From Klenkia sp. PcliD-1-E (GTDB lineage: Bacteria; Actinomycetota; Actinomycetes; Mycobacteriales; Geodermatophilaceae): a stretch of DNA of 64,000 nucleotides. The notes beneath the pieces were generated by a model that saw only the letters and a list, made by a program, of their open reading frames with translations, did not search any database and was not told where the DNA came from. Of this stretch, positions 13,800-16,073 are shown in pieces. Location: positions 1 to 64,000 of the forward strand of contig NZ_JAMXRZ010000005.1 of assembly GCF_024124375.1 (NCBI RefSeq). Reading direction: 5' to 3'. Both the position numbers and the translations under genes were made by a program. The first letter of the stretch is position 1. Each line of letters opens with the position of its first letter.

Positions 13800-15692
13800 T
13801 CAGAACGGCGGTGGATCCTCCGCCGCGGCGCGCGCCGCGAGATCCCGCACGGCGTCGCGGCGGTGGCGGGCGGTCGCAGCTGCAGGTGCCGCTCCGCCGG
13901 TCCCGACCTCGTCGGGCTCCTCGACCAGCCCGAGCACGGGTGGCGGGCGCGTGGTGACGGTCCGGCCGGTGGGGGTGGTCCAGGTCAGACCGGTGCCGTC
14001 GCCGTCCCGGGACAGCGTCCACCCCGGAGCCTGGTGCGACAGGCGGTGGTGGTGGGTGCACAGGCACGCCAGGTTGCACTCGGCGGTCGGCCCACCCTGG
14101 GCGAACGGTTGCTGGTGGTCCACGTCGCAGACACCCGCGCGGACCCGGCACCCCGGGAACCGGCAGCGCCGGTCCCGCAGCCGGATGAACGCGTCGAGGA
14201 GGGCGCCGGGCCGGTACCCGTCCGTCGGGGGTGGCGGACCCAGGCCCGCACCCTCGCGCGCTGCCCGACGCAGGCCCGCCACGTCGGTGAGCGCGGCGAG
14301 CTCGCCGGTCCGCTCGTCGACGACCGCGATGCGCGGCACCCCGGCCAGGCCGGTGCCCGCCGTCCTGCGCCGGGCGAGCAACGCCCCGACCGTGTCGGCC
14401 CCCGCATCGTCGTCGGCACGGGTCCCCTCGTCGCGGGTGTCGTCGCAGGTGTCGTCGCTGGTGTCGTCGTCGCGGGCCCGACCGTCGGGCTTCCCGGGCT
14501 CCGGCAGGAGACCCAGCGACCGGAGCAGGTCACGGACCATGGCGGCCGGCACCACGTCGCCGGACACCTCCCCCGGCTCGTCGTCACCCAGCAGCGTCTG
14601 CAGAGCCACGACGACGGTGAGCTCGGCCTGCACCGCGGTCAGGCCGTGCGCGCCCGGGTCGAGGACGAACGCCACGAGGCAGTCGGCCATCCGCTCGCCG
14701 GCCGAACGCTGGTCGTCGGCCGTGCGCGCGGCCCGCGCGGCGCGGCGCAGACTGTCCTCGACGGCCCGGGCGACCGGCAGCGGCAGCGTGGCCGCGAGCG
14801 TCGCCATGCCGTCGGCACCGGGGTGCACGGCCACCGTCCGGTCGCGCACCGCCTGCGCGACCCGCCGGGTGATCGCCTCGGCATCGGCCTCCAGGACCCA
14901 CCGCCGCACCACCTGACGCCAGTCGGAGGCGGTGCGGCCGGTGGCCCGCCCCAGCAGGTCGGCCTGGGCACGGTCGCGCAGCTCGGCGGACAGTCCGCCG
15001 AGCAGGTCGCAGGCCACCCGCACGTGGTCCCAGGTGATCCGGCCGTCGGCGAGCGCTGCGAGCACCAGGGGCAACCGCTCGACCAGGAGCACGCACTCGG
15101 TGAGCAACCGCTCGGCCCGCTGCGGGGGCAGGGTCATCCCGGCAGCGACCTCGTCGACGCAGAACTCGCTGACCGCGGTGAGCGCGTCGGGGCGGCGGGC
15201 ACGGGAGTCCCTCGCCTGCGCCCCCACCGCGTCGTCGGGGAGGTCGAGGGTGGCCGGCCGCCGGGCCGCGAGCGCCGCCAGGGCGCGCGCCTGCTCGGCC
15301 TGGGCCGCCCCGATGACCCGCTGGGCGGACCGGGCCGTGTCCAGCAGCGCGGCGTCGGCGTCCAGACCGGAACGGAACGCAGCGAGGACGTCCTCACCGA
15401 GCGAGCCGCCGGCCCCGGGACCGGGAGCCCCGGGAACGGGAGCCTCGAAACCGAGAGCGTCGGGGACGGGAGCGTCGGGACCGGGCGCCGCGGGGCGGAC
15501 GTCGGGGTCGGCGGTCCGGGCCAGGCGGACCGGACCGATCAGCCGCTCCGGGGTCACCGGTCGCCATCCACCGACCGGGGGGACCAGCACGACGGGCACC
15601 GGCCAGCTGCGCCGGACCACGAGCCCGGGCGGCCGGCTGCCGAGGCGGGACCGCAGACCCGCCTCGAGCACCGACGGCCTGTGTTCGAACAC
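13800..15692 (-). CDS. 13E12-family protein: DUF222 plus C-terminal HNH endonuclease
   Basis: About 630 residues. An N-terminal region with Pro/Ala/Gly repeats (PGPDAPVPDALGFEAPVP) is followed by the helical DUF222 domain, an acidic Thr/Asp linker (DDDTSDDTCDDTRDEGT) and an HNH domain: RRCRFPGCR, GVCDVDHQQPFAQGG, NLACLCTHHHRLSH. The four zinc/metal Cys and His and the DVDH...N...H triad are intact. The start is uncertain: the GTG at 15692 lies inside a LexA box just after a TATCAT -10 element and would be leaderless, while the GTG at 15671 is an alternative. Family members are SOS-controlled in mycobacteria. Role unproven, probably DNA-damage or mobile-DNA linked. Confidence 0.85.
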   Translation of the reverse strand: MFEHRPSVLEAGLRSRLGSRPPGLVVRRSWPVPVVLVPPVGGWRPVTPERLIGPVRLARTADPDVRPAAPGPDAPVPDALGFEAPVPGAPGPGAGGSLGEDVLAAFRSGLDADAALLDTARSAQRVIGAAQAEQARALAALAARRPATLDLPDDAVGAQARDSRARRPDALTAVSEFCVDEVAAGMTLPPQRAERLLTECVLLVERLPLVLAALADGRITWDHVRVACDLLGGLSAELRDRAQADLLGRATGRTASDWRQVVRRWVLEADAEAITRRVAQAVRDRTVAVHPGADGMATLAATLPLPVARAVEDSLRRAARAARTADDQRSAGERMADCLVAFVLDPGAHGLTAVQAELTVVVALQTLLGDDEPGEVSGDVVPAAMVRDLLRSLGLLPEPGKPDGRARDDDTSDDTCDDTRDEGTRADDDAGADTVGALLARRRTAGTGLAGVPRIAVVDERTGELAALTDVAGLRRAAREGAGLGPPPPTDGYRPGALLDAFIRLRDRRCRFPGCRVRAGVCDVDHQQPFAQGGPTAECNLACLCTHHHRLSHQAPGWTLSRDGDGTGLTWTTPTGRTVTTRPPPVLGLVEEPDEVGTGGAAPAAATARHRRDAVRDLAARAAAEDPPPF

Positions 15693-15700
15693 GTGTTCGA
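15685..15700. promoter_or_regulatory. LexA (SOS) box
   Basis: A perfect 16-base palindrome TCGAACACGTGTTCGA that matches the actinobacterial SOS consensus TCGAAC-N4-GTTCGA at every fixed position. On the minus strand it overlaps a TATCAT -10-like hexamer (15705-15700) and contains the candidate GTG start of the HNH gene. LexA bound here would cover the -10 and start point directly. An overlapping palindrome GTGTTCGAACAC occupies 15681-15692. Confidence 0.85.
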
Positions 15701-15791
15701 TGATAGCCCCCGCAGGACGCCCTGGCCAGTCGTGGCCGGGAGCTGTGGACGACCGGCTGCGCGAGCGACCGGGCCGGCGGACGATGGGCAC

Positions 15792-16073
15792 ATGACCACC
15801 GCTACCTGGAACGGCACCGTGATCGCCGAGTCCGACGACGTCGTCACCGTCGAGGGCAACGCCTACTTCCCCCTCAGCTCGGTGAAGGAGGGCGTGCTCA
15901 CCCCGACCGACACGCACACCACCTGCCCGTGGAAGGGCGAGGCGAGCTACTTCTCCATCGAGGCCGGCGGGCAGACCAACACCGACGCCGCCTGGACCTA
16001 CCCGCAGCCCAAGGAGGCCGCGAAGGAGATCACCGACCGCGTCGCCTTCTGGAAGGGCGTCGAGGTCAGCTAG
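15792..16073 (+). CDS. DUF427-family protein
   Basis: 93 residues, a complete single DUF427 domain. Family hallmarks are present: the start TATWNGTVIAESDD, YFPLSSV and the conserved CPWKGEASYFSIEAGG, then DAAWTYPQPKEAAKEI and the end FWKGVEV. Known members are small soluble beta-barrel proteins of unproven function, sometimes nucleotide- or ligand-binding by structure. It is divergent from the 13E12 gene with about 100 bases between and convergent with the next hypothetical gene. Confidence 0.92.
   Translation: MTTATWNGTVIAESDDVVTVEGNAYFPLSSVKEGVLTPTDTHTTCPWKGEASYFSIEAGGQTNTDAAWTYPQPKEAAKEITDRVAFWKGVEVS

Follow-up and report, generated by a model that had tools for sequence, protein, structure and literature searches.

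Does the LexA box in front of a DUF222/HNH gene of Klenkia sp. PcliD-1-E act as an operator only, or does it also supply the start codon of that gene? The question was raised by a stretch of 64,000 nucleotides (the window, by which we mean the whole stretch of DNA analyzed). Our reading, to which we assign a probability of roughly three in four from the sequence, is that the gene is LexA-repressed, DNA-damage-inducible and leaderless. The features concerned are the following.

13800..15692, minus strand: DUF222/HNH (13E12-type) gene, 630 aa, from the open reading frame and Pfam
14013..14177, minus strand: HNH-like nuclease region, about residues 506-560, from conserved columns, a profile match to IscB/Cas9 and fold matches
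14517..15200, minus strand: DUF222 domain PF02720, residues 165-392, 55 bits, from Pfam
15669..15671, minus strand: rival downstream start GTG (Val-Leu-Glu-Ala), codon 8 of the proposed reading frame, in frame and kept in the orthologue
15685..15700, no strand assigned: LexA operator (SOS box) TCGAACACGTGTTCGA, exact pattern match
15690..15692, minus strand: proposed leaderless start GTG inside the operator, with the proposed +1 at 15692, from spacing, base context and relatives
15700..15705, minus strand: -10 element TATCAT, its last T common to operator and -10
15723..15728, minus strand: -35 element TGGCCA, from a promoter scan, with a 17-nt spacer to the -10
15792..16073, plus strand: divergent neighbour, DUF427 gene, from the open reading frame

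The operator fits TCGAAC-N4-GTTCGA exactly and is perfectly palindromic, and the LexA box proposed in the earlier note is thus real. It is the only SOS box without a mismatch in the window. With up to three mismatches allowed, 15 matches were found in the window against 4.35 expected, and none of 100 shuffles reached 15. A scan of positions 15550-15850 on both strands revealed one sigma-70-type promoter, TGGCCA-17-TATCAT on the minus strand (shuffle mean 0.0). On that strand the order of elements is TGGCCA, 17 nt, TATCAT, 7 nt and GTG (15692-15690). In the earlier note the operator of a 13E12-type gene was placed over its -10 and start codon. The sequence anatomy supports this, although the overlap with the -10 extends to the last T of TATCAT only. 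TATCAT had been correctly named as the -10, but the TGGCCA -35 with its 17-nt spacer was not mentioned, and the interval given, 15681-15708, encloses the box and the -10 but leaves out the -35 at 15728-15723.

The GTG at 15692-15690 occupies positions 9-11 of the box and is in frame with the DUF222 reading frame, which ends at the stop codon 13802-13800 and stays open upstream of the box. It is known that TANNNT about 12 nt 5' of the start codon marks leaderless genes in bacteria and is common in Actinobacteria (PMC3160421). Here the first T of TATCAT lies 13 nt upstream of the GTG. A Shine-Dalgarno sequence is absent 5' of the in-box GTG, the space being occupied by TATCAT and CGAACAC. Transcription starts in M. 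tuberculosis favour a purine, mostly preceded by C and followed by T (PMC3898074); the bases at -1, +1 and +2 of the proposed start at 15692 are C, G and T. The leaderless GTG of the earlier note is in this way upheld indirectly, by spacing and context, and a leaderless start at the in-box GTG appears well supported by the sequence. The N-terminal MF(D/E) was considered as independent proof of this start and dismissed, since it is set by the operator and the search pattern; the right half of the operator, TGTTCGA, when preceded by A or G, reads RTG-TTC-GAN.

Conservation of the arrangement was analyzed in a near-relative set of 20 genes from the top of the match list, which included the window gene and from which C-terminal-only matches (e.g. 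L033) were left out. A box with no more than two mismatches is present in 17 of the 20 genes and absent from L302, L037 and L306; the match of L034 looks like a chance one. Fifteen of the 17 boxed genes have an RTG at box positions 9-11; L038 and L307 probably start elsewhere. L299 and L036 have the pattern, and the frame that begins in the box stops after 62 and 40 codons or misses the matched frame. Eleven of the 20 genes share the register of the window gene's TANNNT, and in seven TGG(C/T)CA-N17 is found at the corresponding place. The orthologue, 81% identical from residue 100 on, has the promoter TGGCCA-N17-TAGAAT-N7-GTG and, at the same place, a near-identical divergent DUF427 reading frame.

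A broader set was assembled by searching 60 genomes, the window's own included, with the window protein; 52 of them gave a match. From the own genome and its relatives, 98 DUF222 stretches were selected on their protein matches, irrespective of any box. In this set, where at least two genes are represented twice (L031/L301 and L036/L315), a box with at most one mismatch is present in 57 of the 98 stretches versus none for the reversed consensus, and one with at most two mismatches in 67 versus four. Under a stricter placing rule the latter figure becomes 57 of 98. Of these 57, 14 have TANNNT where the window gene has it, and another 14 have it shifted upstream by one base. In their flanks a TANNNT begins at 16 of 2,280 positions, and 14 of the 16 are instances of that shifted register itself. 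A third register, in which the -10 is located within the box and followed by RTG after 7 nt, was found in 14 genes. Judged from these sequences, TANNNT-N7-RTG is the constant of the leaderless registers. A count of 29 family genes out of 98 with an in-box start was rejected as too generous: 11 of the 29 also fit the third register, and in two, L014 and L345, the -10 is shifted upstream by one base.

The search was extended to 296 genomes of the phylum, 109 of which contain DUF222. The pattern TANNNT-CGAACNN-RTG-NTCGA gave 96 matches in 41 of these genomes, and the reversed pattern gave one. Two site sets were studied further. The first comprises those 78 of the 96 matches that were listed. The second comprises 122 sites in 119 stretches and comes from a search of 84,980 species genomes, in which a somewhat stricter pattern matched at least this number of stretches. 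The second set takes in Mycobacterium, Mycolicibacterium, Nocardia, Nocardioides, Blastococcus, Bifidobacterium and Acidimicrobiia; it also holds chance matches (Xanthobacter, Edwardsiella, a Clostridia bin and others) on unrelated or tiny reading frames. At the in-box RTG a reading frame of at least 100 aa opens in 58 of the 78 sites and in 76 of the 122; the other two frames give 12 and 13 of 78, and 18 and 31 of 122.

Similarity clustering of the 200 sites produced one cluster of 93, in which 64 of the 82 members of at least 200 aa match PF02720. The other clusters, each named from one member, are a UvrD-type helicase (13 sites), a DnaE-type polymerase (3, probably DnaE2), ImuA' (3), RuvC (2) and RmuC (2). 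In 43 of the 200 sites the reading frame is shorter than 40 aa; the remaining 41 consist of four sites in an unnamed family and 37 singletons, and many of these 41 are likely to be chance matches. Since the arrangement is also found on the helicase, polymerase, ImuA', RuvC and RmuC genes, the operator itself would write Met-Phe-Asp/Glu. From these sequences the arrangement appears to be recurrent and common to several actinobacterial SOS genes rather than a quirk of a single gene. The link beyond mycobacteria suggested in the earlier note is borne out by the DUF222 boxes of the same genome, described below, and by the phylum-wide pattern, and is wider than had been proposed.

The window's register is widespread but not the rule. 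Among 29 phylum DUF222 loci picked without regard to boxes, 12 carry one with at most one mismatch, and several registers occur. The exact register of the window together with a long reading frame was seen in L277 only, where the box has two mismatches, and the window's register is therefore one of several. The shifted pattern, with TANNNT directly before the box, is present in 12 of the 296 genomes (leaders were read in the own-genome cases only), and fewer genomes still, 6 of 296, have the start at box positions 7-9.

The alternative that survives best keeps the LexA operator and promoter as proposed and has translation begin at GTG 15671-15669 (VLEAG...), which would leave the in-box GTG unused and give the mRNA a leader of about 21 nt. 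This codon is in frame, is conserved in the orthologue and has a weak purine stretch on its 5' side. However, it lacks a good Shine-Dalgarno sequence, and both the recurrent TANNNT-N7-RTG spacing and the base context of the start site speak against it. Moreover, at some of the 93 DUF222-cluster sites, though only 16, no in-frame ATG or GTG precedes the in-box codon without an intervening stop and none follows it within 20 codons (TTG was not counted), so that these sites offer no other start nearby. The predicted fold cannot fix the N terminus because residues 1-99 are mostly of low confidence. Taking these points together, we regard translation from the downstream GTG as unlikely and retain the in-box start.

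Analysis of the complete genome placed the box in a wider LexA context. The genome has a single lexA with three boxes upstream, and recA also has a box upstream. With at most one mismatch allowed, the whole genome gave 47 matches (27 distinct sites) versus three for the reversed control. Such a box lies on the 5' side of 11 of the 13 DUF222 places, 39 to 530 nt from the matched part, whereas 27 random sites in 4.5 Mb would be expected to put about 0.04 boxes beside DUF222 places. No box at this threshold was found at the two other places, L023 and L024. One of the 11 boxed places, L025 (C230), is a fragment with an internal stop that has a LexA box beside it all the same. In dinB (Pol IV) and imuA' (L002 and L004, on contigs C104 and C201) an in-frame start giving MFD is present at box positions 9-11; L002 has TAGGCT with N9 and not TANNNT-N7, and L004 has no TANNNT. 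Six paralogues (L013, L014, L016, L018, L019 and L022) have TANNNT one base further upstream, directly before the box TCGAACAC(C/G)TGATCGA, and five of the six carry a Shine-Dalgarno-like GGGAGG downstream. In the own-genome paralogues the register change of 1 bp thus seems to go with a leadered rather than a leaderless form.

These data also bear on the identity of the gene served by the box. It could be a LexA site of the divergent DUF427 gene, or of both genes, given that it is palindromic, lies about 90 bp from the DUF427 start and that the near-identical DUF427 reading frame adjoins the orthologue as well. Nevertheless, the only promoter found in 15550-15850 points to the DUF222 gene, and elsewhere in the genome boxes accompany DUF222 genes, which makes a role for DUF427 very improbable. 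A neutral palindrome, or one that serves a regulator other than LexA, is hardly credible: E. coli ArsR can bind a motif near the mycobacterial SOS box (PMC8151990), but the identical consensus is found at lexA, recA, dinB and imuA' of the same genome, and the conservation of the box in register speaks against another regulator and against neutrality alike.

According to the preferred reading, LexA repression with a leaderless in-box start, a LexA dimer on 15685-15700 would in undamaged cells reach from the end of the -10 across the points where transcription and translation begin. Upon damage, RecA-triggered self-cleavage of LexA would free the promoter TGGCCA-17-TATCAT. RNA polymerase would then begin at or next to 15692, the 5' end of the mRNA would be the operator's own GTG, and the product would have the N terminus Met-Phe-Glu. 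For this system the binding of LexA, induction by damage, the precise 5' end and nuclease activity are predictions, and the main interpretation given in the earlier note is likely right in anatomy and putative in function.

Control of 13E12 genes by LexA is already known. Five putative HNH endonucleases of M. tuberculosis are induced in a RecA-dependent manner (PMC8151990); the same species has 10 HNH-domain 13E12 genes, some of them in the LexA-controlled set (PMC4181829), and the 13E12 genes Rv0515, Rv1702c, Rv3074 and Rv3776 are named in PMC5005354. The earlier note's statement that such genes are LexA targets in M. tuberculosis is therefore in print. The M. tuberculosis REP13E12 HNH genes are the same kind of gene with SOS boxes, whereas the window gene comes from another family and is without a PafBC element. 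The lexA gene of M. tuberculosis is leaderless, its translation start being its transcription start (PMC2897130), and is in this respect a comparable SOS gene; an SOS box supplying the start codon is not described in the excerpt of that paper. The window gene also resembles the TANNNT leaderless genes of actinobacteria, with a -10 about 12 nt before the start and no Shine-Dalgarno sequence (PMC3160421, PMC3898074), but differs from plain genes of this type in that a repressor operator spans the end of the -10 to codon 3. No description of such a fusion of operator and start codon was found in the literature searched, namely the excerpts of PMC2897130, PMC8151990, PMC11804915, PMC8223512, PMC9380542, PMC4181829, PMC5005354, PMC3898074 and PMC3160421.

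A second damage-response element accompanies many of the family promoters. The PafBC motif has been described as TGTCGG, TGTCAG or TGTCAC, N10 and TANNNT (PMC8151990). The distance from TGTC to TANNNT is exactly 12 nt at 26 of the 78 sites and at 37 of the 122; no other offset from 4 to 35 occurs more than twice in either set. This PafBC-type element is present in 49 of the 93 DUF222-cluster sites and in none of the 23 sites of the other recognised SOS genes (UvrD, DnaE, ImuA', RuvC and RmuC), with a Fisher p of 5e-7 that overstates independence because a single genome (G075) contributes 12 of the 49 and the 23 stem from few lineages. Outside the DUF222 cluster as a whole it was found in 14 of 107 sites. 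In the 49 sites the PafBC-type element, the -10, the LexA operator and the in-box start are all contained in one stretch. The damage-inducible PafBC/RecA-NDp promoters are similar in their TGTC-N12-TANNNT spacing (PMC11804915, PMC8223512, PMC8151990). Several genes are known to carry both PafBC and SOS motifs (PMC8223512), and in recA these belong to two separate promoters, P1 (PafBC) and P2 (LexA) (PMC11804915). Thus recA has two promoters where the 49 DUF222-cluster sites have one, and the window gene has no PafBC element: TGTC-N12-TANNNT is absent from it, GGCG stands at the place of TGTC and a -35 is present instead. PafBC control of the window gene was for this reason ruled out.

Three further observations were made on this element. 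In G075:C1 (L060, L103-L114), a genome of 2.5 Mb, there are 31 matches to the -10/LexA/start pattern; the 13 that were read comprise 12 DUF222-cluster genes, all with a PafBC-type element, and one ruvC. In four of the 14 third-register genes (L305, L325, L336 and L042) the -10 inside the LexA box is TACGAT, TATGTT or TATGAT and a PafBC-type TGTC is correctly spaced, which puts the LexA box inside a PafBC promoter. The own genome contains two adjoining WYL-domain genes (L360 and L361, on C259) arranged like a candidate pafB-pafC pair.

The window protein belongs to the DUF222/13E12 family, with a PF02720 score of 55 bits against a cut-off of 24.4. Its HNH label in the earlier note needs a qualification: the Pfam HNH match is below threshold (14.5 versus 21.4 bits), but residues and fold of the HNH type are present. 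C510, C515, D525, H526 and C545 are conserved in at least 90% of 40 aligned proteins, and a profile search matched IscB and Cas9 chains over the HNH part (E 0.0076-0.011). The predicted model has a mean pLDDT of 77.5, with about 90 or more for residues 491-580, and its HNH part aligns with EcoKMcrA (Z 7.7) and IscB (Z 7.3). Residues 126-272 align with the DNA-binding domains of Noc, ParB and Spo0J, the six best chains reaching Z 8.2-8.9 in VIA-align over 98-103 residues at an rmsd of 2.5-2.7; the best structural match outside ParB/Noc and the HNH part has Z 4.6. As helical folds can match by chance at such Z, the ParB/Noc resemblance is a lead only. Foldseek with the predicted model gave no match at E 0.001, and neither PADLOC nor NCBIfam matched the window protein. 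It has been suggested that 13E12 is a mobile element (PMC5005354). With the window protein as a lone query, one of 50,697 phage and one of 72,556 plasmid records matched, both over the HNH part only.

A joint reading of all these data can be proposed at even odds. The actinobacterial LexA operator would double as a translation start signal, writing Met-Phe-Asp/Glu on the leaderless mRNAs of unrelated SOS proteins (DUF222/HNH, UvrD-type helicase, DnaE-type polymerase, ImuA', RuvC, RmuC and perhaps DinB). In DUF222 genes it would be fused with the PafBC element into a single promoter of less than 45 bp that needs activation by one damage sensor and release of the other. The protein itself may couple a ParB/Noc-type DNA-binding domain, its DUF222 part, to an HNH nuclease and would then be a damage-induced, site-directed nuclease. 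If this is true, one repressor site is at once operator, part of a promoter and coding sequence, LexA binding preference shapes protein N termini throughout the phylum, and start-codon annotation of SOS genes would be corrected. The DUF222-linked join of PafBC and LexA would have both damage pathways acting through one promoter, which would make the function of 13E12 proteins more approachable as a question.

Two minor observations come from the pattern matches. Three genomes of one genus (L081, L132 and L137) have a similar promoter whose in-box start opens a short reading frame; the encoded peptides resemble one another (MFD-VKGGK...) and may represent small SOS peptides or the remains of a broken gene. 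In G207 there are three near-identical pattern sites with near-identical N termini, MLDPEVVARFDEHVERR... (L115, L116 and L119), which points to recent duplication of DUF222 genes together with their promoters.
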